In this document: positions 6,911 through 58,370 of the stretch, piece after piece
Numbering within the stretch: position 1 is the stretch's first letter
How the letters are laid out: the number at the start of each line of letters is the position of its first letter
From: Sipunculus nudus
Taxonomy: Eukaryota; Annelida; Sipuncula; Golfingiida; Sipunculidae
Length of the DNA stretch: 64,000 nucleotides
Assembly (NCBI GenBank): GCA_026874595.1
Contig: CM049317.1
Span: forward strand, 38,588,401 to 38,652,400
Direction of reading: 5' to 3'
The notes under the pieces: model-generated
What the model was told of the DNA's origin: nothing
The model's database searches: none
What the model saw: only the letters and a program-made list of their open reading frames with translations
Translations under genes and position numbers: made by a program

Positions 6911-9900
6911 TTTTAGCTCAGCTCACCATAAGTTATCTAAGCTATAGTGTTGGTTCTCTGTCTGTCTGGCCATCTGTTAACAGGGTACATTTTGAAACCA
7001 CTTGACTTATGGATCCAAAATTTGACATATAGTTAGAAGTCCCAAAGTTAATTTTCCTGTCAAACTCAAAACTGGGTCACTGTGAATGCATTCCTTTGAG
7101 GAAGTAAGGAAAAAACTTTTCCATCGAAAACCTATTGTTACATTCTAGGACTGCCTGTTGGCTGTTTTTGTGCAAATTCAGCAAAAATATTCCTTGATAT
7201 ATTTTCTTTGTACATGTCAGAAATTAGGTCAATATTGCATAATCTGTACAAGTTGGGGCCTGAAAATAATGTTTATTGTCAAAATATCAAGAAAGATATT
7301 TACGCTTTTTTTGGCCCCCCCCCCCCTTCGGCAGAAAGGAGGTCATTAATTTGAGTTGTTTGATCTGTCCGTCTGTCCGTCAGGTTATCTTCTCCATGTG
7401 ATAATTTTCTTGATATTAACCTTTTTATTCAAATTTTGGTCAGCGATTGCTCTCATGCATACCTTGGTTGGGTTTTGGAATATCTCTCTGAAAAATTATT
7501 ATCACCAGCTCCAAAACAAAATTTTCCTCTTTCCCAATTCACAAAAAAAATGATGACATGTGGAGACATCTTCCGGGGACAATGAAAACTAACACAGAGG
7601 CACTATGACATGTGGAGACATCTCCAGGGGAAAATAAAAACTGAAGCATATTGAGAAAGCAAAAGGGGAAAACGAGGTGTAAGCAGAGGACATAAATTCC
7701 ACGAAAAAATGGTAAATGGGGAAGCTAGAGAGCCTTTTTCAGTGTAATATGTAACTGTATTTAATTGAGATTTATTTTGATACCAGGAATTAGGTCAAAA
7801 CTTTGGGGTTTTTTTTAAGTTATCAGCATAAATTTAAAATCATTACCTTAAATTTGCCCAACTTTGACAATGGTACATTTTTTCCTGTACACACTGTTGA
7901 CTTATTTTCACATCATGCCAACATAATGATTATGTTATAATCTTTTATCATCTGAAATTTGAAAGCATTTGATAAAAAAAACATGTCACTGTCAGGCAAT
8001 CCTGAGATTATGTAGCTGCCCCCTCAACCTCCTGAGTGCCTGTGCTGGCCTGAGGTCTGACTGATTTGTCATGGGGTGGTCTGAGCCAGAGACAACTTCC
8101 ATGTGACCCCAGTACAGGTTAACTGTTACATAATTCAGCTGGTGGGATGGCCACTTAAGCGAAATCTCAAGGTAATACATCATGACACAGTGTGTGTTAG
8201 TAAGATGGAACCTGTTTCACATTTCAGTTACAATCACACATGAAATTATATAATCTCTAGGCCAAAAAAAATTAAAGGTATGGTTCTCAGGCACCGCCAG
8301 CATCAATTTTAACCCCCTGCATCATAAATTTTTATTTTGGTTTTCCACAGAAACTTACCAATTTTGAGCTGCAGCCACTTGCATATTTCTTCCAAGTAGA
8401 TAGAATCATACAATTTCCTTTGTTATGTAGTGCTTTAGCTTGTTTAGCAAAATAAATCTGTTATTATCATGCTTTTCCATTATCATTTGACATTTTTTAT
8501 CAAAACATACTAAAAAAATAAAAATAAAAAAACGCCCACCCACATTGATTTCTGAATAAAAGTCCCTGAGAACCATTCTCTTTTTATTTTGGCCTTAATC
8601 CTCTCATGTTTATTAGACTTTTGGACTAAGGAACTGACTGACTGGCTTGGTCCACTGCGAAGGGAGAGAGTGCAGGGTTATGACTTTTTGAGCTCCCCCC
8701 CCCCCCTTGCACACATACACACATAACAAAAACAATCATTTGTCTTCATATGTTAAGGTTTATGTTTTGCTTCTATCCAAAAATCTCATCAGATATGTTC
8801 TCTACAAATGAGTTTAAAACAGACACTGTTACAGTTATTTTTCAATCAAGAATGGTTTCTGTATTGAATTAAAGACATAATTTTTTTAATATGGAATACC
8901 ACAAAAATGCAGTACAAAATTGTAAAGCCTAATTACAGTCCCTGTGGTAATTCATAATTAATGGTAAACACCCAAAAATAGTTCAGGATTTCATAAATTG
9001 GATAATGTTAATAAAACATGCTAAGGATCATGTCCTAGTTTTCCTTATTGCATGATTAAATGGATTCATGCCTCAATTTCATTTGAGCAATGTTTACTTT
9101 ATTTAACATACTTATCAAATTTGGTTTATTCTAATTTGAAAATGGAAAATTTTAAATTTATTTTACACCCTCTTATTTAAGTTAATAAATTAAATATGTA
9201 TTATTATCTCCACTTTCTTCTTTTTTTTTTGCCATGCTCCGCGGATGCTGGGGACATTAATTTGGGTTTGTCTGGCTCTCTGTCTCTCTGTCAGTCCGTC
9301 AGGTTTTTTTGTTTCTGTGCAATAACTTTCCTAAATATTATCCAATTTCATTCAAATTTGGGTCAGTGATTGCTCTCATGAATACCTTGGTTGGGATTGG
9401 TTTTGGAGTGTCTGGCTTCTGTCTGTCTGTCTGTCACTCTGTCTGTCTCTCCATCTGGTGTTTATTTCCAGGCGATAATTTACCTAAATATCATCTGATT
9501 TCATTCAAATGTTGGTTAGTGATTGCTCTCATGGTCAACTTGTTTGGGATCGGTTTTGGAGTGTCTGGCATTCTGTCTGTCTGTCTGTCTGTCACTCTTG
9601 TCTGTCCGTGCATTATCAAGCATGTAAAACAACAAGAGCCCAAAGCAGGGGACATTTATTCCACAAATTTGGTTGTTAATATTTACATGCATATTACAGT
9701 CACTTAGTTTAGATACCAGTACTACTACAAATGTGTTATCATGAGAGGCTCCTGCATGTTTGATATAGCCAGTAAAAGTACACAGGCAAGTCCAAATATG
9801 AGTATTGTGTTCATTTCTCAAATAATGATATAAAAAATGAACTGTTGCTGTATTTCAATATGTTAGATTTTAATAAAAAATAATCTCATAATCAGTTTCA

Positions 9901-9981: not shown

Positions 9982-10024
9982 ATTATGACAGACTTCACTT
10001 CTGTCCAAAAGATATCCAACTCAA
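9982..10024 (+). CDS. TATDN1: TATDN1 exon (DYDRLHFCPKDIQLK)
   Basis: A 43-nt exon with acceptor CTCTCACGCAG before it and donor GTAAGT after it. The first two bases (AT) complete a GAT codon split from the previous exon; the exon ends with AA, completed to AAG by the G that opens the next one. DYDRLHFCPKDIQLK matches the segment of TATDN1 that directly follows the GECGL motif. The upstream exon that should donate GECGL was not located. The short length is supported by the phase match on the 3' side and the strong donor. Confidence 0.85.
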
Positions 10025-10235
10025 GTAAGTATACGCAATCAGTATCACTACATATACCAATATACAAATATGTACATACAATGAGAACATTGTTCAAATT
10101 CACATAGCAAACCTGTTAGCTTATGCGATGGCGCAGTGTCGTCCTTCATATGTACGTTACCCCTTACTACCTCAAAAAAGGCTGGAGCTAGCAAATTTTG
10201 TGAAAAATTAGTCATCTAAAAAACTTTGTTGGATT

Positions 10236-12217
10236 TTTCTTATAGTCTCATAGTTGTTTTCCATTGTCCATCTGTCTGTCAGTCTGTCCGTCCATTAGAC
10301 TGGCACATTTTGAAACTATTAGACCTACAAATCCAAAATTGGGCATACTGTTAGATGTCCCCAAAATCTCCTATCATACCGAAAATTGGGTCAATATGAC
10401 TTAGTTCCTTCAAGATATTTAGGAAAAACCTCAAATTTCCATTGAAAACCTATTATCACACTTGAGGTATACCTAATATCAAAACCACCTATCTGTTTTT
10501 CTTAATATTTACCAGAAGGAATGTCCTATATATTTCCTATATACCTGCCAGAAATTAAGTCTGTTAAGTATAATTTCTTTAAATTATGGGCCGGAACATA
10601 ATGGACTTTGTAAAAATTCCAGAAAATATTTACTCATTTAACATTAAAAATATTGAAACTAGAGACTATTTTCCCAAGTATATAACTTTGTTTAATTAAG
10701 ATTCAACTGTTTACCCAATAGTAGATCTGAATTTTGTAAATTTTTAAGTTATTAGCATAAAAATAAAATCAGTACCTTGAAAATTAGGCAATTTATTGAT
10801 TTCTTTCCAGAGGCTCTATTATAGTCAGTTGCTTTGTCCAGATGCAGGGTCCCACTACAGGTCACTGGAAGTGAGCTATGCCAGGGTTTCTGATTTGATA
10901 CAGTCACTAGGGAAGATCCCCTGCTGTGACAGGTGTACAGTTATTCTCATATCACCACCCCAATCCCCCCCCCCCCCCCTCAGAATTGTGAAATCCGAAT
11001 CAAGTATTATTTTTAGATATATATTGTTTTGCAAATTTAAAGGATATATTTTTGAGGTAAAAATAAATATACATTTGTATGCATGATGTGGTGTTATCTG
11101 ACAAGATTGAGATTTATGATGATGCAATTTAGAATTATGAATCAACTTTTATATTCAGAAATATATGTAATATTGGAAATGTATAGAAATTTAAACTTAG
11201 AATAAAAAAAATTGATGTGATAAAAAAATGAGGATCTAATACAAACATTTGTTCATTATTGATTCCTGTGCACTGGGACATTAGTTTTTATTGCAAATCT
11301 GTAAAGTTTATTTAATTTAAAAAATTATAGGATTAGAAAAAATTAAGATCTTATTGAAACATATTCTTGCCTTAGGAGAATGGTACATAATGTGATCAGC
11401 TCTGTCATTCATCTTTCCGTTATCATTAAATATATATTAATTATGAAATTTTTCCTATAAGCACTGTTTAAATAACTTTCATTAGCTGTATGTGTTTGGA
11501 AATAAGCTATTTAAGTCTGAAATTTGAAAGTAAATTATATATTCATTTGTGTATTATTGCAAATGTTAAACTTAAAAAAAATTTGATATTATAAAAGAAA
11601 TTAAGAAATAATTGAAAAGTCATATATTATCAGCTTTGATTGCCTAACAGTCCTTTTTTAAATATTATGTAATTGTGAATGAACTAGTTTATCCTGTATG
11701 CATTGTTGAATTAAGTGAAAATCCTATATGTATATACACTATATTAATACAGATATGTTGTAACTCCCATTATTCTAGCCCCCCCCCCCCCCCCCCCCCC
11801 CACCACCACCACAAGTCCTTGCATCTGCGGACTGGGGACATCAGTTATATTTCAACTGTATACATTTTGTAAAATAAAAAAATACATATATTTAATAATA
11901 TATATTATATAAAAATAGATCCAATTGAACAAATGAGTAAACTACTGAACTGTCAACAATTTATGAAAAAGCCAGCCAATGTTCATGGAAATAATATACA
12001 TCTTATGTTCACAAACTGCTCACATGCTTCAATTGTGACATTAGAAAATGCATGGTTTTGTCACAAAATATTATTTGCAAAATTTCTTACTCATCAATAC
12101 AAACCAATCATGTCAACCAGCCATGGCCATTATTGCCTTTTCCACTTAGACTTTATATCTGTCCGATATTATTTTAGATTTTTAACTTCAAGGTCAACTA
12201 CAGCTGAGCACAGTGAC
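10236..12217 (+). mobile_element. Family-1 element, truncated at both ends
   Basis: A degraded 5' end and a GTCTGTCAGTCTGTCCGTCC run near 10270, then an interior parallel to the copy at 3441-6314, including the module 10796-10960 and poly-C runs at 10966 and 11780. It ends at CAGCTGAGCACAGTGACCC with the terminal hairpin lost. Confidence 0.65.
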
Positions 12218-14517
12218 CCATATTTTAAGCACCATGTCTTGATTGTTTACATCAAGTCAGAGGTTAACAGTGTGCCAGGCTGTTACATAACACCTTCAGT
12301 CCTTGCCTAGCTACTGCTTCTGTGAGTGTCTGGGTCAGGCTGGCTCAGGCAGTAAGTACCAGAGAGCAGAGTTGGTTCCTTGAGTGAGTACTTTAAGTAC
12401 TTGAGTATGAGTACTGAGTACTTTAAAAGTACTTGAGTACAAGTATGAGGACTTTAGCACTTTTTTCAAAAGTACCGCCGCCGCAGAAAAACCTTGTGAG
12501 CGGGATAACTCAAAAAATATTTCACTGATCTTTTTCAAACTTTACATTTGTATAGATATAGGTAAGGGGACGAAGCCTATTTAAAATGGGGTCATGACCT
12601 ATGCTAGGAGAGTGACCTTGACCTTGAATAGGTCCATTTTTGCTGAAAATAACACAAATTCTTAAATATCTCAAGTAAGCTTGCATGGACTGGCCCAAAA
12701 ATCAAGGTGACCAAAGGTCTTGGATAGCCTTATGATATACCGGAAACTGGTGGCGCCACCTATTATCCTTTTCTTGTTTTTAAGCCTTTTAATACCCCCA
12801 TAATTGCCACTTGACAGTACTGTAAGCATTATAAGTCAAAAACTAATGGACAGATTTCTTTCATATTATGCACATGTAGAGAGATGGGTTATAGGATAAG
12901 GTCTATTTACATTTGGGTCATGATCTTTACCATGAGAGTGGCCTTGACCTTTAATGTGTCCATATTTGGTGAAAATCACACACATTTTATGATATCTCCA
13001 GTGTTGATAGCCATATGGATTTCAAACGTGACTTATATATGGCCCACCACTAAAGTAAGAACCCTATAGCTTCTAGGGACATGAGGTCAAAGGTCAAGGT
13101 CACAGGACACTTCTTTAAAAAGATTGTGGATGCATTTTCAGCCAAACATTTCATCTCAGGCCTTTCATCTTGCACATATAGTTCATCTGCCAAAAGAGGA
13201 AGACCCCTATCAATTTTGAGGTCACAAGGTTAAAGGTGAAGGTCACAGGAGCCATCTGTCCAAAAATTAGTTTCTGGATGATAATTCCTGCTTTTATTGA
13301 TGTATGGATTTCAAACTTGACTTGTATATGACCCATTGGAAAAGCAAGACCTGAATTGATTTTGTGGTCATGAGGTCAAAGGTCACAGGACACATCTTTA
13401 AAAAGATTTTGGATGCATTTTCAGATTAACATTTCATCTCAGATCTTTCATCTTGCACATATAGTTCACCTGCCAAGGTGGAAGACCCCTATCAATTTTG
13501 AGGTCACAAGGTCAAAGGTGAAGGTCACAGGAGCCATCTGTCCAAAAATTAGTTTCTGGATGATAATTCCTGCTTTTATTGATGTATGGATTTCAAACTT
13601 GACTTGTATATGTCCCATTGGAAAAACAAGACCCGAATTGATTTTGGGGTCATGAGGTCAAAGGTCACAGGACACATCTTTAAAAAGATGTGGATGCATT
13701 TTCAGCCAAACATTTCATCTCAGATCTTTCATCTTGCACGTATAGTTCACCTGCCTAGAGAGGAAGACGTCTGTCAGTTGTGAGGTCACAAGGTCAAAGG
13801 TGAAGGTCACAGGAGCCATCTGTCCAAAAATTAGTTCCCGAGATGATAATTCAAGCTTGGATTAATATATGGATTTCAAACCTGACATATATGGCCCATC
13901 AATAAATCTAGACTATTGATTTATATATAAATGTGTATAATGTGATGTGCCAAAAGGTCAAGGTCACAGGACCAACATCTTCAAAAAGATTGTGGATTGA
14001 TAGATGGAGAAAAAAATAATTTTTTACCAAGTGTCAGTATATGTTGCTAAAAATGGGGGCCTATTCTTAAAGGGGGGGAGCGTACTATGTCTGGGGATAC
14101 GTCTAGTTTTAATTTAAAATTTTTTTTTTTAAATCTTGGATTTTTTTTCTCTTCTGCAGAATACAGGTGGCGCCACCTTGTGACGTTTTCTTGCTTTAGC
14201 ACCTTGTAAAACCCACCACTGCCATTGCTGCTTCACAGCACTGTGAGCATGATAAATTGAAAACTAATTGACAGATTTTTTTCATATCATGTATATAGAT
14301 ATGGGTAACGGAATGAGATATATTTCAATTTGGATCATGACCTCTCCTATGAGAGTGACCTTTACCTTAAATATGCTCATACTTATAAGAAACCATGGTG
14401 GCTTGCAAAGTGTCAGTCTCTGCATCTGAATTCAAGATGGGATCCTATTCTTCGAGGCTGGGGGGAGGGGGGGTTAATTGTCTGGGGATACTATGCGGTG
14501 CCAAGAAATATCTAGTT
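12218..14517 (+). mobile_element. Family-2 fragments with AGGTCA-rich tandem core
   Basis: The interior resembles 1936-3141 (GGGGTCATGACCTATGC, GAGAGTGACC). Two 3' ends are visible: GTCTGGGGATACGTCTAG at 14086-14105 and GTCTGGGGATACTATGCGG, then ATATCTAG, at 14480-14516. 13077-13840 holds about three units of 280-300 bp with AGGTCA clusters. 12380-12474 is an AGTACTTT/GAGTACT low-complexity stretch. Confidence 0.6.
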
Positions 14518-15070
14518 CAGCATGTAATCAAGGAGGGAAACCATTTCAGCCGGTGGCTCGAATCATATCAAAGGCTATTTAGAAGAAAGAGTGATCAGTG
14601 GTCCATGAGGTAACCCTTCAAAGCTGTCGGGCGAGCAATATCAAAGGCTAATTAGCACACCAGGCGGTCAGTAGTCCGTGAGAGTGTTGTCGCACATGAA
14701 TATCCGGGATTGTCATGCATGATGGATGGATTTTACTATACAATTACCCTATATTTACATTTATCAGATATTCAAATAAACAGAGAATTTTATTGAGAAG
14801 ACAAAGGAAAAGGTTTTGGTTTTTAGTATTTTATATAATTAAATGAGATATACAATTATACGATAAACAATTAAGCAGGACCAACTGTACTTGAAAAGAG
14901 TATAGGTGCAGCATTGAAGCATTATACCTGATGTATATTCCATTGCACAGGTTCACATTATGCTTGTAGGCCTTGTTTAATTTAAGGTCTATTTGCAAAT
15001 TTGTAATTTAAAAAAAGGATAATGTTCAGAAATTTTTGTGTGGAATTCAGGGGTTTCAGGTAAACTTATC
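14518..15070. other. Intron stretch with little recognisable content
   Basis: Holds two approximate copies of a roughly 90-bp segment (ATATCAAAGGCTA, CAGTGGTCC/CAGTAGTCC) at 14560-14690 and a family-5 3' end at 14921-14979. Nothing else was recognised. Confidence 0.5.
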
Positions 15071-16694
15071 CAGGTACTTTGAGCGTCAGTTTGAGGTAGA
15101 TAATGACCGAGTACAACTCTTGTCCTTTTTCAGGTACTTTGAGCAACAGTTCGAGGTAGCTAATGCCCCAGTACAACTCTTGTTCTTTTTCAGGTACTTT
15201 GAGCATCAGTTTTAGGTAGCTAATGCCTCAGTACAACTCTTGTTCTTTTCAGGTACTTTGAGCATCAGTTTTAGGTAGCTAATGACCCAACACAACTCTC
15301 ATTCTTTATTAGGTACTTTGAGCATCAGTTTTAGGTAGCTATTGCCTCAGTACAACTCTCATTCTTTATTAGGTACTTTGAGCATCAGTTTAAGGTAGCT
15401 AATGCCTCAGTACAAATCTTGTTCCTTTTCAGGTACTTTGAGCATCAGTTTCAGGTAGCTAATGCCTCAGTACAACTCTTGTTTTTTTTCAGGTACTTTG
15501 AGCATCGGTTTTAGGTAGCTAATGACCCAGTACAACTCTCATTCTTTAATAGGTACTTTGAGCATCAATTTTATGTATCTAATGCCTCAGTACAACTCTT
15601 GTTCTTTTTAGGTACTTTGAGCATCAGTTTTCAGTAGCTAATGCCTCAGTACAACTCTTGTTCTTTTTCAGGTACTTTGAGCATCAGTTTGAGGTAGCTA
15701 ATGCCTTAGTACAACTCTTGTTCTTTTTCAGGTACTTTGAGCATCAGTTTTCAGTAGCTAATGCCTCAGTACAACTCTCATTCTTTATTAGGTACTTTGA
15801 GCATCAGTGTTAGGTAGCTAATGCCTCAATACAACTCTTGTTCCTTTTCAGGTACTTTGAGCATCAGTTTCAGGTAGCTAATGCCTCAGTACAACTCTTG
15901 TTCTTTTTCAGGTACTTTGTGCATCAGTTTTAGGTAGCTAATGACCCAGTACAACTCTCATTCTTTAATAGGTACTTTGAGCTTCAGTTTTCAGTAGTAA
16001 ATGCCTCAGTACAACTCTTGTTCTTTTTCAGGTACTTTGAGCATCAGTTTTCAGTAGCTAATGCCTCAGTACAACTCTTGTTCTTTTTCAGGTACTTTGA
16101 GCTTCAGTTTTCAGTAGTTAATGCCTCAGTACAACTCTTGTTCTTTTTCAGGTACTTTGAGCTTCAGTTTTCAGTAGTTAATGCCTAAGTACAACTCTTG
16201 TTCTTTTTCAGGTACTTTGAGCTTCAGTTTTCAGTAGCTAATGCCTTAGTACAACTCTTGTTCTTTTTCAGGTACTTTGAGCTTCAGTTTTCAGTAGTTA
16301 ATGCCTCAGTACAACTCTTGTTCTTTTTCAGGTACTTTGAGCTTCAGTTTTCAGTAGCTAATGCCTCAGTACAACTCTTGTTCTTTTTCAGGTACTTTGA
16401 GCTTCAGTTTTCAGTAGTTTTTGCCTCAGTACAACTCTTGTTCTTTTTCAGGAATTTTGAGCATCAGTTTTCAGTAGCTAATGCCTCAGTACAACTCTTG
16501 TTCTTTTTCAGGTACTTTGAGCATCAGTTTGAGGTAGATAATGACCCGGCAGTACAACTCTTGTTCTTTTTCAGGTACTTTGAGCTTCAGTTTTCAGTAG
16601 TTAATGCCTCAGTACAACTCTAGTTCTTTTTCAGGTATTAAGAGCGTCAGTTTTAGGTAGATAATGACCCAGTACAACTCTTGTTCTTTTTCAG
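15071..16694 (+). repeat. 60-bp minisatellite of tandem 3' splice sites
   Basis: About 27 units of about 60 bp, each carrying TTCTTTTTCAG (variants TTCTTTATTAG, TTCCTTTTCAG), then GTACTTTGAGC and a TCAGTTT block. The last acceptor is that of TATDN1 exon 16695-16821, and the first 30 nt of that exon match a unit such as the one near 15670 at all but two positions. Unit length is a multiple of three: 16198-16623 is open for 141 codons with a repeating YFELQF motif in the exon's frame. A block of variants (TTATTAG, then CCTTTTCAG, then TTTAATAG) seen from 15359 recurs from 15779, seven units later, a higher-order duplication. The last full unit contains in-frame TAA and TAG. Confidence 0.95.
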
Positions 16695-16821
16695 GTACTT
16701 TGAGCGTCAGTTTGAGATAGCTAAATCCACTGGACTACCCATGTTCTTGCACTGTCGGAATGCAGCAGAAGATTTTGCAGACTTGGTCCGAAAACATTTT
16801 GATGACTTTAGCAGTGGAGTG
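16695..16821 (+). CDS. TATDN1: TATDN1 exon with LHC metal-ligand motif
   Basis: A 127-nt exon. Its first G completes Lys, followed by 42 codons (YFERQFEIAKSTGLPMFLHC, then RNAAEDFADLV...) ending at a codon boundary before donor GTAAGT. The His of LHC is a TatD-family metal ligand. The acceptor TTCTTTTTCAG is the last of about 27 tandem copies of itself, because the 60-bp minisatellite ends exactly here. The start is fixed by phase with the upstream exon and by loss of repeat identity within the exon. Confidence 0.93.
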
Positions 16822-17345: not shown

Positions 17346-17422
17346 GTTCACTCCTTCGATGGCAGTAGAGAGGATGTCTCCACTTTTGTAGATCTAGGAT
17401 TATACATTGGCATCAATGGCTG
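17346..17422 (+). CDS. TATDN1: TATDN1 exon with VHSFDG motif
   Basis: A 77-nt exon after acceptor TTGTTTTAG. It starts in phase 0 and reads VHSFDGSREDVSTFVDLG then LYIGING, ending with TG of a split Cys codon before donor GTGAGG. VHSFDG holds a conserved metal-binding His of the TatD fold, and LYIG is the following core strand. Only 524 nt separate it from the previous exon, the one compact intron of this gene in the window. Confidence 0.93.
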
Positions 17423-21098: not shown

Positions 21099-22258
21099 TC
21101 CGCCATAACAGTTTTGCGGATACTATGTTTTCAGTGGAACGCCGCCGCCGCTTAGGTTTCCAGATAACTCTTCCGTAACCACTGGGCAGAATTTTTTTTA
21201 AATTAGGAATTATGATTGGGTCACATGTGACCTGCTGCGCCCTCATTTTTGGTTGACCTCTAACCTTTCCTCTCTGCCCAGCCTCCATTTGTGCATCTGT
21301 TTCCACACATAAACCCACAGGAACCCTTGACCGATCAAGCTAAAAATTTGCACAAATGTAGCCCTTTGATAGCTTTATAACATACACTAAAAATGGTGGT
21401 GCCACCTGCAACCATTTTTGCACAGTGTCCATCTGTTCATCTGCCTTGGGATAAAATCACTCATATCTCTGCATGGTTTGGACTTATTCACCTGGAATTT
21501 TGCATGTGGATACATCCTGGACAGCTTTCTTGATTTTATGACAGGTGGCGCCACCTACATTCACCTTTACGCTGCAGACATCCAAGCACATATCTCGTGG
21601 ACCGTTTGACCGATTGGGCCAAAATTTTGCATGTGTATAGATCTCACATAGCTCTTTGTCAAACACAAAACTGGTGGGGCCTTCTGCAACCATTTTTGCA
21701 CAGTGTCCGTCTGTTTGTATGCAGTGGGATAAAATCACTTGTATCTTGGCAGTGGTTTGACATATCTGCCTAAAATTTTGCATGTTAATACATCTTGGAT
21801 AGCTTTCTCGATTTTATGGCAGGTGGCACCACCTACATTTATGTTTAAGCTGCAGACATTCAGGCTTATATCTCAGGACTGGTTTGACACACCCTCCTAA
21901 AATTTTGCATATATATAGATCTCACATAGCTCTTAATCATACACAAAATTGGTGGCGCCACCTGCCACCATTTTGCACAGCGTCCTTCTGTTTTTTCTGC
22001 TGTGGGATAAAATCACTCGTATACAAGTAGTGGTTTGACTTATCTGCCTATAATTTTGCATATGTTTACAACTTGGACAGCTTTCTAGATTTTGTGGTAG
22101 TTGGCGCAACCTACCTACACATTTCAGCTGCAGACATCCATGCTAATATGCAACACACCTCACTCTATTTCCCCTAGCCACTCAATCATTGCCTCACTTC
22201 ACCCGTCCCACTCTGATTTTGGTGGATACACGTCGCTTGTCCACTACCCATATTCTAG
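21099..22258 (+). mobile_element. Family-2 element (TATCCGCC subtype)
   Basis: 5' end GTATCCGCCATAACAGTTTT, then GCGGATAC; 3' end with GGTGGATAC, then TATTCTAG (22255-22258) next to T. The interior has GGTGGCGCCACC units near 21543 and 21952. It ends 59 bp before TATDN1 exon 22318-22388, so it sits close to the branch-point region. Confidence 0.75.
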
Positions 22259-22317: not shown

Positions 22318-22388
22318 CTCTCTGAAAACAGCTGAAAATCTGGAAGTCCTGAAGTGCATACCCAGTGATAGACTTCTTATTGAGACAG
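22318..22388 (+). CDS. TATDN1: TATDN1 exon ending in LLIET
   Basis: A 71-nt exon after acceptor TTTTTGTAG. C completes the split Cys, then SLKTAENLEVLK and CIPSDRLLIET, ending with G of the catalytic Asp codon completed by the next exon. The donor is GTAATT. The last 32 nt of the exon, the donor and 15 nt of intron are repeated in tandem just downstream, so the true donor is the first of about 15 near-identical donors. Reading past it in frame meets TAA at 22424-22426. Confidence 0.93.
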
Positions 22389-23090
22389 GTAATTCAGACT
22401 TGCATATCTCAGTGATAGACATCTAACTGAGATAGGTAATACAGACTTACATATCTCAGTGATAGACATCTCACTGAGACAGGTAATACAGACTTACATA
22501 TCTCAGTGATAGACATCTAACTGAGACAGGTAATACAGACTTACATATCTCAGTGATAGACATCTAACTGAGACAGGTAATACAGACTAACATATCTCAG
22601 TGATAGACTTCTAACTGAGACAAGTAATACAGACTTACATATCTCAGTGATAGACTTCTTACTGAGACAGGTAATACAGAGATAGACATCTTACTGAGAC
22701 AGGTAATACAGACTAACATATCTCAGAGATAGACATCTTACTGAGACAGGTAATACAGACTAACATATCTCAGTGATAGACATCTTACTTAGACAGGTAA
22801 TACAGACTTACATATCTAAGTGATAGACTTCTAACTGAGACAGGTAATACAGACTTACATATCTCAGTGATAGACTTCTAACTGAGACAGGTAATACAGA
22901 CTTACATATCTCAGTGATAGACATCTCACTGAGACAGGTAATACAGACTTACATATCTCAGTGATAGACATCTCACTGAGACAGGTAATACAGACTTACA
23001 TATCTCAGTGATAGACATCTTACTGAGATAGGTAATACAGACTTACATATCTCAGTGATAGACTTCTAACTGAGACAGGTAATATAGACT
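22389..23090 (+). repeat. 47-bp minisatellite of tandem 5' splice sites
   Basis: About 15 units of 47 bp follow TATDN1 exon 22318-22388. Each unit has an exon-like part (CATATCTCAGTGATAGACAT, a TCTNACTGAGACAG end), a donor GTAATA and about 10 nt more. The template is visible: the last 32 nt of the real exon plus the start of the intron. One shortened unit sits near 22680. CAG|GTAATA is kept in nearly all units. Confidence 0.95.
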
Positions 23091-26153: not shown

Positions 26154-26286
26154 ATGCTCCTTGGTGTGAAATAAGGCCAACTCATGCAGGATCTAAGTTC
26201 ATTAAGACCACATTTCCCACAAAAAAGAAAGAGAAATGGGAGACTGGCATGTGTGTGAAAGGCAGGAATGAACCAGCATTGATCAG
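26154..26286 (+). CDS. TATDN1: TATDN1 exon with (D)APW active-site motif
   Basis: A 133-nt exon after acceptor TGTTTTTCAG. AT completes GAT, giving [16 protein letters not shown], then [12 protein letters not shown] and GRNEPALI, and AG of a split Arg. DAPW carries the conserved metal-binding Asp of TatD proteins; the THAGSK and FPTKKK stretches are typical of TATDN1 rather than bacterial TatD. The donor is GTAGCT, weaker than the others. Confidence 0.93.
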
Positions 26287-29000: not shown

Positions 29001-29180
29001 AAAATGTCCAAGTCTGAAACTTGCAGGTCCTAAACGTCCATTTTGCTGAAATCATAATGACTAAGGTAGATATGCAGGACTTAAGAGGATCAATATTAAA
29101 TTTTAAAAATTAAAACCTTCATTCATACCCCTAAACTTTGCACAGGTTCGCATTAGGCCTGTAGGCCTTGTTCTTTTTAC

Positions 29181-29937
29181 AGATGACGATATGTCATGAA
29201 TCTCCTGACAGGTGGACCATTCATGAACTGTCATGAATCTCCTGACAGGTGGACCATTCATGTACTGTCGTGAATCTCCTGACAGGTGGACCATTCATGT
29301 ACTGTAATGAATCTCCTGACAGGTGGACCATTCGTGTACTGTAATGAATCTCCTGACAATTGGACCATTTGTGTACTGTAATGAATCTCCTGACAGGTGG
29401 ACCATTCATGTACTGACATGAATCTCCTGACAGGTGGACCATTCATGTACTGAAGTGAATCTCCTGATGGTTGGACCATTCATGTACTGTCATGAATCTC
29501 CTGACAGGTGGACCATTCATGTACTGTCGTTAATCTCCTGACAGGTGGACCATTCATGTACTGTCATGAATCTCCTGACAGGTGGATCATTCATGTACTG
29601 TCGTGAATCTCCTGACAGGTGGACCATTCATGTACTGTCATGAATCTCCTGACAGGTGGATCATTCATGTACTGTCGTGAATCTCCTGATGGGTGGACCA
29701 TTCATGTACTGTCATGAATCTCCTGACAGGTGGACCATTCATGTACTGAAGTGAATCTCCTGATGGGTGGACCATTCATGTACTGTCATGAATCTCCTGA
29801 CAATTGGACCATTCATGTACTGTTATGAATCTCCTGACAGGTGGACCATTCATGTACTGTAATGAATCTCCTGACAGGTGGACCATTCATGTCCTGTTGT
29901 GAATCTTTTGACAGGTGGAACATTTGTGTACTTTCAG
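29181..29937 (+). repeat. 37-bp minisatellite ending at the last TATDN1 acceptor
   Basis: About 20 units of 37 bp: TGAATCTCCTGACAGGTGG, then ACCATTCATGTACTGTCA. The final unit has changed to CATTTGTGTACTTTCAG, whose AG is the acceptor of exon 29938-30037. Open frames on the - strand here only reflect the repeat. Confidence 0.95.
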
Positions 29938-30037
29938 GCAGGTCCTGGAAGTGATGGCTGGAGCTAGAGGAGAAGACCCAATTGAGCTGGCTGAGTGCAT
30001 GTACAACAACACTCTAAAGCTATTCTTTAAACAATAA
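29938..30037 (+). CDS. TATDN1: TATDN1 last exon and stop
   Basis: A 100-nt coding part of the last exon. G completes Arg, then [32 protein letters not shown] and TAA at 30035-30037. It matches the terminal helix of TATDN1 and stops within a residue or two of the usual end. The acceptor GTACTTTCAG is a diverged copy of the 37-bp minisatellite unit that fills the end of the intron. Confidence 0.92.
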
Positions 30038-33056: not shown

Positions 33057-36000
33057 AGCTCAGCTGACTGAAAGTCATCTGAGCTATAGCGATCACTCTT
33101 TGTCCGTCGTCCGTCCGTTAACCAGGCACAAATCGTAACCGCTGGACCTAGAACCTTGTAACTTGGGATTCTGAGAGGTCCATAAAAAATCTCCTTGGAA
33201 ACCAGAAATTAGGTCTCTGTTACCCATATCCTTCGAGCTATGTGGCCCCAAAGTACCCCCCAGAAAAGTCAAAAATTTCATACAAAAACTTCAATATCTC
33301 ATTAACTACTTGACTGATGGTCATGATTTTTGGCATACATATTGATCATGAGATGTTACATCACTTCCTGCAGACTGGTGGCGCCACCTGTATTTTTTTA
33401 TTTTTTACGAATTTTTTTCTCTATTTTTGAGACCTTTAAAAATGTGAACATCTGTTAACAAGGCACAAATCATAAAGACTGGACTTAGAATCTTAATTCT
33501 TGACACATTGAGAGGTCCATGAAAAATCTCCATGGAAACCAGAAATTAGGTCTCTGTTACCCATATCCTATGAGCTATGGGGCCCCAAAGTACCCCCCAG
33601 AATAGTAAAAAATTTCATACAAAAACTTCAATATCTCAATAACTACATCACTGATGGTCTTCATTTTTGGCATATATATTGATCATGAGATGTTCGATCA
33701 GTTCCTGCAGACTGGTGGCGCCACCTGTACTGTTTGATTTTTTACGATTTTTTCCTCTATTTTTGAGACCTTTGAGGATGCTGTCATCTGTTAGCGTGGC
33801 ACAAATCGTAACGACTGGACCTAGAATCTTCATTTTCGACACACTGAGAGACCTATGAAAAGTCTCCATGGAAACCAGAAATTAGGTCTCTGTTACCCAT
33901 ATCCTTCGAGCTATGGGGCCCAAAATTACCCCCCAGAATAGTCAAAAATTTCATACAAAAACTTCAATATCTTATTAACTACATCACTGATGGTCATGAT
34001 TTTCGACATACATATTGATCATGAGATGTTTCATCAGTTTGTGCAGACTGGTGGCGCCACCTGTATTTTTCAATGTTCACGAATTGTTTTCTCCATTTTT
34101 GAGACCTTTAAGGATGTAGTTATCTGTCAACAGGGTACAAATCGTAACGACTGGACCTAGAATCTTCGTTCTTGACACACAGGGAGACCCATGATAAGTC
34201 TCCATGGAAACCTGAAATTTGGTCTCTGTTACCCATATCCTTTGAGCTATGGCACTCCAAAGTACAGATCAGAATAATGGAAAATTTGATACAAAAGCTA
34301 AAGTATCTGAACAACTAATGCAGAGATAACCATAATTGTTTGCATGGATATTGATCATGGAGTGTTTCATAAGTTTCTGCAGACTGGTGGCACCACCTGT
34401 ATTTGTTCGTTTTTTTTTACGAAATTTTTCTGTATTTTTGAGACCTTTAAAGATATGAACATCTGTTAACAGGGCACAAATCATAAAAACTGGACCAAGA
34501 ATCTTTATTCTTGACACACAGGGAGACCCATGAAAAGTCTCCATGGAAACTTGAAATTAGGTCTCTGTTACCCATATTCTTTAAGCTGTATGGGTCCAAA
34601 ATACCCTCCCCCCCCCCAGAATAATGGAAAATTTGATACAAAAACTGCAGTATTTCAATAACTACAACACTGATGGTCATGATTTTCGGCATACATATTG
34701 ATCATGAGCTGTTCCATCAGTTTCTGCAGACTGGGTGTGCCACCTGTATTTTTGTATCCGCCAAAACGAAGTTTTGCGGATACTATGTTTTTGACCGAGT
34801 TCCTCCGCCGCGGCGGCGTTCGTTTCCAGAGAGCTCCTCGGAGACTAATGGACCGATTTTTCCCAAACTTACACCTATTATCGGGTCACATGTGAACTGG
34901 TGCCTAACCAATTTGCATTGACCTCTGACCTTTCCTCTCTATCCAGTGTCCATTTGTGGGTCTGTTTCCACTCATAAACCCTCATATCTCGGGAACCGTT
35001 TGACCGATCAGGAAATAAAATTGATACAAATGTAGCCCTTGGATTGCTTTATAACATACACAAAAAATGGTGGCGCCACCTGTAACCATGTTTGCACAGT
35101 GTCCATCTGTTCATCTGCCTTGGGTTAAAATCACTCATATCTCTGCAGTGAATTGACTAATTCACCTGAAATTCGTCATGTGTATACATCCAGGATAGCT
35201 TTCTTGATTTTATGACAGGTGGCGCCACCTACGTTCACGTTCACGCTGATGACATCCAAGCTTATATCTCGGGAACCGTTTGACCGATCAGGAAATAAAA
35301 TTTATACAAATGTAGCCCTTTGATAGCTCTGTAACATACACAAAAATTGGTGGCGCCACCTGTAACAATGTTTGCACAGCGTCTGTCTGTTAGTCTGCCG
35401 TGGCCTAAAATTACTCATTTCTCTGTATTGGTTCGACATAACTGCCTAAAATTTTGCTGGTTTATACATCGTGGACAGCTTTCTTGATTTTATGACAGGT
35501 GGCGCCACCTACATTCTAGTTAACGCTGCACACATCCAAGCTCATATCTCAGGAACCATTTGACTGATTGGGCCAAAATTGTGCATGTGTTTAGATCTCA
35601 CATAGGTCTTTATCATACACAAAACTGGAGGGGTTACCTGCAAAGATTTTTGCACAGTGTTTGTCTGTTTGTCTGCCATGGGCAAAAATCGCTCATATAC
35701 ATGTAGTGGTTTGACTTTTCTGCCTAAAATTTTGCAGGTGTATACAACTTGGACAGCTTTCTGGATTTGTGGTAGGTGGCACAACCTACATACACATTTA
35801 GGCTGCAGACATCCATGCTAATATGCAACATACCTCACTCTATTTCCCCTTGCCACTCAATCCATGCCTCACTATCCGATTTTGGCAGATACATGTAGTC
35901 ACTTGTCGGTTACCCGTATTCTAGTTTTAAAAGTTTACACATTTTTCTCTATTTTTGAGATATATAAATACAGACTAAATCTTGGCCTGTTGGTTAATCT

Positions 36001-48750: not shown

Positions 48751-51467
48751 CAAGTGACCCATGGGTCATGACGCTCAGCTGACTGGGAAGAGATTCGCAA
48801 AAGGAAATTTTATCATCAGAATGGTAGTATATACCCATTCAACTGAAGCATCAAACAGATTAACCAACAGGCCAAGATTTAGTCTGTATTTATATATCTC
48901 AAAAATAGAGAAAAATGTGTAAACTTTTAAAACTAGAATACGGATAACCGACAAGTGACTACATGTATCTGCCAAAATCGGATAGTGAGGCATGGATTGA
49001 GTGGCAAGGGGAAATAGAGTGAGGTATGTTGCATATTAGCATGGATGTCTGCAGCCTAAATGTGTATGTAGGTTGTGCCACCTACCACAAATCCAGAAAG
49101 CTGTCCAAGTTGTATACACCTGCAAAATTTTAGGCAGAAAAGTCAAACCACTACATGTATATGAGCGATTTTTGCCCATGGCAGACAAACAGACAAACAC
49201 TGTGCAAAAATCTTTGCAGGTAACCCCTCCAGTTTTGTGTATGATAAAGACCTATGTGAGATCTAAACACATGCACAATTTTGGCCCAATCGGTCAAATG
49301 GTTCCTGAGATATGAGCTTGGATGTGTGCAGCGTTAACTAGAATGTAGGTGGCGCCACCTGTCATAAAATCAAGAAAGCTGTCCACGATGTATAAACCTG
49401 CAAAATTTTAGGCAGTTATGTCTAACCACTACAGAGAAATGAGTAATTTTAGGCCACGGCAGACTAACAGACAGACGCTGTGCAAACATTGTTACAGGTG
49501 GCGCCACCATTTTTTGTGTATGTTACAGAGCTATCAAAGGGCTACATTTGTATAAATTTTATTTCCTGATCGGTCAAACAGTTCCCTAGATATAAGCTTG
49601 GATGTCATCAGCGTGAACGTGAACGTAGGTGGCGCCACCTGTCATAAAATCAAGAAAGCTATCCTGGATGTATACACATGACGAATTTCAGGTGAATTAG
49701 TCAATTCACTGCAGAGATATGAGTGATTTTAACCCAAGGCAGATTAACAGATGGACACTGTGCAAACATGGTAACAGGTGGCGCCACCATTTTTTGTGTA
49801 TGTTATAAAGCAATCCAAGGGCTACATTTATATCAATTTTATTTCCTGATCGGTCAAACGGTTCCCGAGATATGAGGGTTTATGAGTGGAAACAGACCAA
49901 CAAATGGACACTGGATAGAGAGGAAAGGTCAGAGGTCAATGCAAATTGGTTAGGCACCAGTTCACATGTGACCCAATAATAGGTGTAAGTTTGGGAAAAA
50001 TCGGTCCATTAGTCTCCGAGGAGCTCTCTGGAAACGAACGCTGCCGCGGCGGAGGAACTCGGTCAAAAACATAGTATTCGCAAAACTTCGTATTGGCGGA
50101 TACAAAAATACAGGTGGCTCCACCAGTCTGCAGAAACTAATAAAAACACTTAATGGTCAATATCCATGCAAAAAATCATGGTGATCTCTGCATTAGTTGT
50201 TCAGATACTTCAGTTTTTGTATCAAATTGTCCATTATTCTGAGGGATACTTCGGAGTCCTATAGCTTGAAGGATATGGGTAACAGAGACCTAATTTCAAG
50301 TTTCCACTGGCACCTTTCATGGGCCTCCTTGCATGACAAGAATGAAGATTCTAGGTCCAGTTGTTACCCTGTTGACAGATAACCACATCTTTAAAATCTC
50401 AAAAAAAAGAAAAAAATTCGTAAAAATTTGAAAAAAAAATAGAGGTGGCACACCCAGTCTGCAGAAACTGATGGAACAGCTCATGATCAATATGTATGCC
50501 GAAAATCATGACCATCAGTGTTGCATTAGTTGTTCAGATACTTTAGCTTTTGTATCAAATTTTCCATTATTCTGAGCTGTACTTTGGAGTGCCATAGCTC
50601 AAAGGATATGGGTAACAGAGACCAAATTTCAGGTTTCCATGGAGACTTATCATGGGTCTCCCTGTGTGTCAAGAACAAAGATTCTAGGTCCAGTCGTTAC
50701 GATTTGTACCCTGTTGACAGATAACTACATCCTTAAAGGTCTCAAAAATAGAGGAAAAAATCGTAAAAAATCAAACAGTACAGGTGGCGCCACCAGTCTG
50801 CAGGAAGTGATCGAACATCTCATGATCAATATGTATGCCAAAAATGAAGACCATCAGTGATGTAGTTATTGAGATATTGAAGTTTTTGTATGAAATTTTT
50901 TACTATTCTGGGGGGTACTTTGGGGCCCCATAGCTCAAAGGATATGGGTAACAGAGACCTAATTTCTGGTTTCCAAGGAGATTTTTCATGGACCTCTCAG
51001 TGTGTCAAGAATTAAGATTCTAAGTCCAGTCTTTATGATTTGTGCCTTGTTAACAGATGTTCACATTTTTAAAGGTCTCAAAAATAGAGAAAAAAATTCG
51101 TAAAAAATCGAAAAATACAGGTGGCGCCACCAGTCTGCAGGAAGTGATGTAACATCTCATGATCAATATGTATGCCAAAAATCATGACCATCAGTCAAGT
51201 AGTTAATGAGATATTGAAGTTTTTGTATGAAATTTTTGACTTTTCTGGGGGGTACTTTGGGGCCACATAGCTCGAAGGATATGGGTAACAGAGACCTAAT
51301 TTCTGGTTTCCAAGGAGATTTTTTATGGACCTCTCAGAATCCCAAGTTACAAGGTTCTAGGTCCAGCGGTTACGATTTGTGCCTGGTTAACGGATGGACA
51401 GACGGACAGACGGACGACGGACAAAGAGTGATCGCTATAGCTCAGATGACTTTCAGTCAGCTGAGCT
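48751..51467 (-). mobile_element. Family-1 tandem-core element (2717 bp)
   Basis: Inverted relative of 33057-36106 with very similar sequence. It has four 333-bp units instead of five, which accounts for the 333-bp length difference. Carries the nested family-2 copy at 48933-50100. Confidence 0.85.
48933..50100 (-). mobile_element. Family-2 element nested in a family-1 element
   Basis: Same length (1168 bp) and host site as 34757-35924, opposite strand. Ends: CTAG at 48933-48936 and TCCGCC (inverted) ending at 50100. A TATTCG/GGATACT change disrupts the 5' stem here. Confidence 0.8.
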
Positions 51468-56805: not shown

Positions 56806-58370
56806 TGCAATTATCAATGCCATGCATGGACACCTGTACCAGTCATGTCAATTATCAATGCCATGCATGGACACTGGTACCAGTCAAGTCAGTTATCAAT
56901 GCCATGCATGGATGTGGGTACCAGTCAAGTCAGTTATCAATGCCATGCATGGACACCAGTACCAGTCATGTCAATGATCAATGCCATGCATGGACACTGG
57001 TACCAGTCAAGTAAGTTATCAATGCCATGCATGGATACCAGTACCAGTCAAGTCAGTTATCAATGCCATGCATGGACACCGGTACCAGTCATGTCAATGA
57101 TCAATGCCATGCATGGACACCGGTACCAGTCAAGTAAATGATCAATGCCATGCATGGACACCGGTACCAGTCAAGTCAATTATCAATGCCATGTATGGAC
57201 ACCAGTACCAGTCATGTCGATTATCAATGTCATGTATGGACACCAGTACCAGTCATGTCGATTATCAATGCCATGCATGGACACTGGTACCAGTCAAGTC
57301 AATGATCAATGCCATGTATGGACACCAGTACCAGTCATGTGAATTATCAATGCCATGCATGGACACTGGTACCAGTCATGTCAGTTATCAATGCCATGCA
57401 TGGACACTGGTACCAGTCAAGTAAATGATCAATGCCATGCATGGACACCGGTACCAGTCAAGTCAATTATCAATGCCATGTATGGACACCAGTACCAGTC
57501 ATGTCAATTATCAATGCCATGCATGAACACCGGTACCAGTCAAGTAAATGATCAATGCCATGCATGGACACCGGTACCAGTCAAGTCAGTTATCAATGCC
57601 ATGCATGGACACGGGTACCAGTCAAGTCAGTTATCAATGCCATGCATGGACACAGGTACCAGTCAAGTCAATTATCAATGCCATGCATGGACACCGGTAC
57701 CAGTCAAGTAAATGATCAATGCCATGCATGGACACCAGTACCAGTCAAGTCAATTATCAATGCCATGCATGGAAACCGGTACCAGTAAAGTCAATTATCA
57801 ATGCCATGCATGATCACCGGTACCAGTCATGTAAATTATCAATCCCATGCATGGACACCAGTGCCAGTCAAGTCAATTATCAATGCCATGCATGGACACC
57901 GGTACCAGTCATGTCAATGATCAATGCCAGGCATGGACCCCGGTACCAGTCAAGGAAATGATCAATGCCATGCATGGACACTGGTATCAGTCATGTCAAT
58001 GATCAATGCTATGCATGGACACCGGTACCAGTCAAGTCAATTTTCAATGCCATGCATGGACACCGGTACCAGTCAAGTCAATTATCAATGCCATGCATGG
58101 ACACCGGTACCAGTCATGTCAAATTATCAATGCCATGCATGGACACCAGTACCAGTTATGACAATTATCAATGCCATGCATGGACACCGGTACCAGTCAT
58201 GTCAATTATTATTGCCATGCATGGACACCGGTACCAGTCATGTCAATGATCAATGCCATGCATGGACACCAGAACCAGTTATGACAATTATCAATGCCTT
58301 GTATGAACACCGGTACCATTCATGTCAATTATCAATGCCATGCATGGACACTGGTACCGGTCAAGTCAAT
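56806..58370. repeat. 41-bp minisatellite in the LIG4 intron
   Basis: About 38 units of 41 bp: ATCAATGCCATGCATGGACA, then CCGGTACCAGTCAAGTCAAT, with ATG/AAG and GAT/TAT variants. The units contain palindromes CCATGCATGG and GGTACC. The period is not a multiple of three and the unit lacks stops, so long open frames (up to 157 codons) appear in all + frames as a by-product. The array lies about 180 bp past the donor of LIG4 exon 58551-58636. Confidence 0.95.

Follow-up and report, generated by a model that had tools for sequence, protein, structure and literature searches.

Mirage minisatellites in the TATDN1 gene of Sipunculus nudus: a splice acceptor repeated in 27 units that carry the start of its own exon

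Mirage minisatellites, tandem repeats of an exon–intron edge on its 5' or 3' side, are known from lancelets, where two reports (PMC3087553, PMC3902484) place them in Adh3, the globin genes BflGb6 and BflGb9, PGBD5 and troponin C. In the same reports, reverse-transcription PCR suggested that splicing was undisturbed, and it was proposed that new introns could arise from such repeats. Here, we describe arrays that conform to the structural definition of this class in the TATDN1 gene of Sipunculus nudus, part of which lies in the window, a stretch of 64 000 nucleotides (C12:38588401–38652400) from an assembly of 1.43 Gb in 153 contigs (GCA_026874595.1). The array of main concern, array B, occupies positions 15074–16694 of the forward strand and leads into the exon at 16695–16821. 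We consider it, with a probability of roughly 0.6, to be an acceptor-side mirage minisatellite that was founded probably from the start of this exon and that is tolerated as a by-product without function.

The TATDN1 arrays resemble those of lancelets in that the units at the edges differ from the inner ones and the coding frame is apparently normal. They differ in scale, with 16–28 splice sites per edge (27 + 1 in array B, 26 in array A and 16 in array C) against 3–6 repeat units in lancelet BflGb6, in the presence of three or four arrays in a single gene and in a host that is not a cephalochordate; moreover, the intronic-looking half of the array B unit may itself be exon-derived. Internal tandem repeats in human segmental duplications (PMC2812944) are likewise of minisatellite size, lie at exon–intron boundaries and alter splicing, but they average about 4 × 30 bp and belong to recently duplicated genes, whereas TATDN1 has 15–27 decoys per edge and its exon DNA was found once. 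A third comparison is offered by intron gain through duplication of an AGGT-bearing piece of exon or through intronization (PMC3443670 and PMC2891723; see also PMC4974935), in which, as probably in array B, the splice signals come from duplicated coding sequence, one copy of which turns into intron; in array B, however, the intron was already present and its acceptor was displaced and multiplied, with no new intron position. No report of mirage minisatellites in molluscs was found in the literature searched.

Each of the 27 tandem units of array B comprises a copy of exon nt 1–30 (GTACTTTGAGC..) followed by 30 nt that close with a pyrimidine tract and AG. Tandem Repeats Finder (TRF) reports a 60-bp array of 27.5 copies at 15071–16724; when the array is cut at the AG, 24 of the 27 full units measure 60 bp, two measure 59 bp and one 63 bp, and the array stops exactly at 16694, where the exon adjoins without a gap. 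The terminal AG is present in all 27 units, with 11–13 pyrimidines in the 14 nt that precede the last three nt of the unit, and the junction between units reads AG/GT in 26 of them and AG/GA in the other. The unit consensus is identical to exon nt 1–30 at 27/30 positions, so the original prediction of an acceptor region amplified about 27 times, with the start of its own exon included, is borne out. A motif that resembles the branch-point consensus, CTAAT or TTAAT, occurs in 21/27 units; the last full unit, at 16635–16694, lacks it. The end of this unit is the putative functional acceptor. It was correctly predicted to contain in-frame stops, of which there are two, although its position had been given as 16623–16682; the penultimate unit has one. 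Across the 24 units of 60 bp, 29/60 positions are invariant. Units 1 and 27, at the two edges, read GCGTCAG as the exon does, the inner units read GCATCAG or GCTTCAG, and GTAGATAATGA is common to units 1, 25 and 27; the edge units have thus escaped homogenization, as is characteristic of mirages. In a DNA search of the whole assembly, which scores only the best candidates, the exon gave one match and the unit gave 16, all inside array B. Mirages would also be expected to vary in length between alleles or tissues; the one assembly covered here shows a single locus. A protein-coding repeat was ruled out, as 9/27 units contain an in-frame stop and the two 59-bp units shift the frame. An ordinary intronic minisatellite placed by chance was also rejected because the units carry exon sequence, the array halts at the exon edge and the overlap of arrays with exon edges in this gene exceeds that of random placement (see below).

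The exon at 16695–16821 (YFERQFEIAKSTGLPMFLHC..), the fifth of nine that were found, was identified through human TATDN1 (chains 8efg and 2xio, E ~1e-20), in agreement with the earlier assignment. Read with the sites nearest the exons, the nine exons form an open frame of 285 codons that closes with a stop, and their donors and acceptors are canonical; the start codon, and with it the first coding exon, was looked for and not found. Of 120 proteins listed, the closest three are mollusc TATDN1 proteins from Haliotis and Octopus (65–67% identity), and none is an older database copy or comes from a close relative of the species. The exon at 9982–10024 (DYDRLHFCPKDIQLK) closes with CAA/GTAAGT and is the upstream partner of exon 16695–16821. 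Further downstream, also on the forward strand, the exons at 17346–17422 and 26154–26286 (donor GTAGCT) have edges free of arrays, the exon at 22318–22388 contributes its last 26 nt and its donor to the first unit of array C, and the last coding exon, at 29938–30037, ends in the stop and has array D running up to its acceptor. Another exon lies upstream of the window, at −9703 to −9557 (L021 297–443), with array A on its donor side.

When the decoys were substituted by script, one at a time, for the exon-proximal site, the frame was kept to the end by none of the 27 acceptors of array B, none of the 25 decoy donors of array A and none of the 15 of array C, so that all 67 decoys give a broken frame and a premature stop; use of an upstream acceptor in array B would not yield full-length protein, as had been foreseen. 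Against 15 TATDN1 proteins hand-picked from the 120 listed, the protein read through the exon-proximal sites aligns with no gap at any of the four array sites. Given the open frame and this gap-free alignment, we infer from the sequence that the exon-proximal sites are those used. Judged by its pyrimidines (13/14), the real acceptor of array B ranks first among the nine in the gene, and most of the decoys equal it; local signals therefore fail to single out the right acceptor. The choice would instead depend on nearness to the exon and its GTAAGT donor, with the wrong products presumably decaying.

It might be argued that such an array is kept for a purpose, with decoy acceptors or mini-exons regulating TATDN1 by poison splicing and decay or by stepwise (recursive) splicing at AG/GT. 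The retention of AG in 27/27 units and of AG/GT in 26/27, the branch-point-like motif that 21/27 units have and the last does not, and the premature stop that follows from all 67 decoys would be in keeping with such a role. However, with 29/60 positions of the unit invariant, the kept AG is not special. At a recursive splice site, AG is expected to be followed directly by the donor consensus GTRAGT; the consensus junction of the units, CAG/GTACTT, has no such core. Similar arrays, moreover, lie at donors and in unrelated genes, as a general mutational process predicts, and we regard a regulatory function as very unlikely.

The intron that holds array B (10025–16694) is 6.67 kb long, of which about 5 kb precedes the array and the last 1.6 kb is the array itself. 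Array B therefore lengthened a pre-existing intron and created none, so that it falls outside intron gain by tandem duplication, in which the duplication makes the intron. The left flank (15057–15073, forward strand) ends in ACTTATCCAG directly before unit 1; its CAG, which stands in sequence unlike the array unit and is preceded by 7/14 pyrimidines, fits an old acceptor that has been stripped of its role, and the flank is a candidate for the decayed ancestral site. In this light, the proposal that coding sequence was turned into intron needs qualifying: judged by its likeness to the exon, the conversion (intronization) is clear for unit nt 1–30 and probable for nt 31–60, and it extended an existing intron.

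The first half of the unit is clearly derived from the exon, which is also the probable source of the second half. The second half is identical to exon nt 31–60 at 18/30 positions, without gaps and in the register set by the unit length, which reproduces the earlier count by eye. Among window 30-mers outside the array, the fraction that reaches 18/30 is 2.4e-4 against the half-unit and 2e-5 against the half-exon; none of 232 intron-end-like 30-mers does so (the best reaches 15), nor does any other 30-mer in the exons of the gene, of which 589 were compared at approximate exon coordinates. The chance-level identity that had been named beforehand as evidence against exon descent was thus not what was found. 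In nt 31–57, 8/11 differences are changes to T (p 0.018), an excess that is expected if a coding stretch has been tuned into a polypyrimidine tract, and the change at nt 31 completes the CTAAT motif, 30 nt ahead of the AG.

Several observations weigh against an exonic origin of the second half. Divergence from the exon is uneven, with 3/30 differences in the first half and 12/30 in the second (Fisher p 0.015). The consensus of the edge units 1, 25 and 27 matches exon nt 31–60 at 17/30 (window fractions 6e-4 and 1.4e-4); for unit 1, at the array edge, the figure is just 15/30. Local alignment with shuffling gives a weaker result, p 0.004–0.008 against nt 31–60 and p 0.013–0.025 against nt 31–127, the whole remainder of the exon. 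A pyrimidine run at 29167–29178 outscores the exon in local alignment (24 versus 20). In the other clear mirages of this genome, arrays A and C and three arrays at kinase exons (L032, L078 and L085, described below), the units straddle the edge and include true intron, and the left edge of L078, as we read it, likewise lies inside the exon part. The likeness that the original prediction took for descent is real in the sense of exceeding chance, and the descent is probable but unproven, holding on our sequence comparison at odds of about two in three.

Some of these points would be natural if the founder had straddled the edge, joining 30 nt from the intron end to 30 nt from the exon start; the tract would then be the old intron end, and its likeness to exon nt 31–60 would be due to chance. 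That all five of the arrays just named straddle their own edges, that identity to the exon, 27/30 up to about nt 30, is 18/30 beyond it and that unit 1 reaches only 15/30 all point this way. Set against this are the rarity of 18/30 in the unit-length register among window 30-mers and its absence among the 232 intron-end-like ones. The second half would also be expected to the left of unit 1 unless it has been lost, yet the left flank (14990–15073) shows no similarity to it beyond chance (shuffled alignment, p 0.70–0.84); this argument from the left edge is weak because the straddling L078 array also starts inside the exon part. We view the straddling founder as the less probable origin, although it is the most serious competitor, and one that would leave the mirage, the decoys and the exon-proximal use unchanged.

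A dispersed element resembling a short interspersed nuclear element (SINE), with the end ..GTAGGCCTTGTT, was also considered as the source of the pyrimidine tract, since it lies near several acceptors of the gene. The unit shares 12/12 nt (CTTGTTCTTTTT) with the end of such an element at 29167–29178 (shuffle p 0.001–0.004), and copies stand 96 bp before unit 1, before exon 26154 and before array D. The copy adjoining array B, however, matches no better than chance (p 0.36–0.41) and the common run is low-complexity pyrimidine, which makes this origin the least credible of those considered. As an observation in its own right, the element, ending TTAGGCCTGTAGGCCTTGTT, has ten matches in 264 kb, at window positions 14958, 26081 and 29153 and at seven more places; three of the ten are shortly ahead of TATDN1 acceptors or acceptor arrays.

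The scheme that we favour for array B would begin with a short tandem duplication at the exon edge, followed by amplification and homogenization through unequal exchange or slippage. The founding segment was probably the first 57–60 nt of the exon, perhaps taken from the last CAG of the intron onwards (about −3 to +57). The pyrimidine-rich PMFL codons of the exon, now upstream of a second CAG/GTAC, would then have acted as a polypyrimidine tract, which later changes, mainly to T, may have strengthened. The original acceptor before unit 1 would have lost its role as use shifted to the exon-proximal copy, with each copy left behind turning into intron. The array would have no dedicated function and would be tolerated because the exon-proximal acceptor is favoured (by exon definition, with the GTAAGT donor 127 nt further on) and because use of a decoy gives a premature stop.

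The other arrays of the gene bear on how general such a process might be. Array A, at −9595 to −8400 (L021 405–1600), is a 46-bp donor array with 26 donors, 25 of them decoys, and its donor lies 9.6 kb upstream of the window; 24 copies of its decoy unit have an additional GTAGGTGAGT and read TAG/GTGAGT where the real, functional exon has GTAGGCGAGT. Array C (22363–23090, forward strand) is built from 47-bp units of exon tail, GTAAT donor and about 21 nt of intron; the first of its 16 donors is the presumed functional one and the other 15 are decoys. Array D (29192–29936, forward strand) has 37-bp units in 20.1 copies (TRF), most of them with CTGACAG/GTGGA, and its end meets the acceptor of the last exon. 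The fifth array, with a unit of 50–51 bp, is internal to an intron. A unit that spans an exon–intron boundary is thus found in arrays A, B and C, whereas array D is counted as abutting its exon only; splice signals of the AG/GT type, called by pattern in arrays A and C, are likewise contained in the repeats. Taking arrays with a unit of 37–60 bp and at least five copies, three of the five overlap an exon edge, an outcome (at least three) that random placement gives in 2.8e-5 of trials; without array B, at least two of four are on an edge in 0.0011 of trials. In these tests, which depend on the arrays having been noticed first, array D was counted as non-overlapping and edge positions may be up to 10 nt off for exon 26154.

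That array B is a single odd event is not supported: the gene has two further splice sites of this kind, three kinase exons in a sample of 60 are alike, and the type has been described from lancelets. The sample was hand-picked from 138 short kinase-domain matches, with flanks of 350–500 bp and match ends that are not always true exon edges. The resulting frequency of about one in 20 has a wide margin. Of the three arrays that span edges, L032 has 8.2 copies of 65 bp at a donor and is truncated where the stretch ends, L078 has 4.4 copies of 45 bp at an acceptor, and L085 has 2.4 copies of 89 bp at another donor; at L043, L060 and L073, TRF arrays (at least two copies, period at least 20) do not span an edge. 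The background is high, with 29 arrays of period 20–120 and at least three copies in 264 kb, and an overall enrichment of arrays at exon edges is suggestive only.

Further repeats were seen in the surroundings. Downstream of the window, a 66-bp array abuts the donor of a BRCT-like exon (GDETFCVLAEK..QQQFIPW; Pfam 16.7 bits, below the cut-off of 27.3) on the minus strand at L022 ~9020–9430 (+73019 to +73429), and a second 66-bp array with a nearly identical consensus unit lies at +71119 to +71578. In the window, a 41-bp array of 38 copies (CAATTATCAATGCCATGCATGGACACCGGTACCAGTCAAGT) at 56808–58370 is tied to no recognized exon, and tandem repeats of 278–337 bp occur at 21369–22140, 33117–34757, 34984–35824, 49033–49873 and 50104–51395; the units of several of these contain the core GGTGGCGCCACC, and a similar unit of 339 bp recurs at −8153 to −4787. 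A 46-bp satellite of about 460 copies extends over 21 kb at C12:38473180–38494345 (window −115221 to −94056).

Related TatD genes were also encountered. Positions 938–2437 of L090 (C2:21684800–21688600) hold an open reading frame (ORF) of 499 residues (open frame of 505) with a TatD nuclease domain, beside an ORF that we read as a Ty3-like integrase. Of 154 TatD matches listed, on many chromosomes, at least 22 lie in open frames of 505 or 509 residues, and one of these contains a stop; the sequences probably reflect a retroelement that carries a TatD gene. Intronless TatD genes of bacterial appearance occur on the small contigs C61, C62, C64, C65, C66, C69, C72, C74, C75 and C89, which are perhaps symbionts or contaminants; C61 measures 2.17 Mb, and among 32 loci found in genome contigs the best relative of its TatD protein is only ~40% identical.

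In our reading, the TATDN1 arrays are by-products of tandem duplications that started at exon edges, and they are tolerated because the site nearest the exon wins or the wrong products are destroyed. New with respect to the lancelet class are the occurrence in another phylum, the high copy number, the three or four arrays in one gene and an acceptor that was probably built from coding sequence. A broader and more tentative proposal, which we think somewhat doubtful, is that in this genome exon edges are the preferred seeds of tandem duplication, which at a few percent of exons reaches tens of copies, and that it has made a working acceptor from TATDN1 coding sequence, splice sites being founded anew from their own exons with the protein unchanged. 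The locus extends a little-known class of lancelet minisatellites to a further animal phylum and provides a natural test of how the spliceosome chooses among dozens of near-identical sites, donors and acceptors together, in one pre-mRNA. If splice edges are indeed preferred seeds, the arrays would point to a mutational mechanism linked to these edges and to a way for coding sequence to turn into intron.
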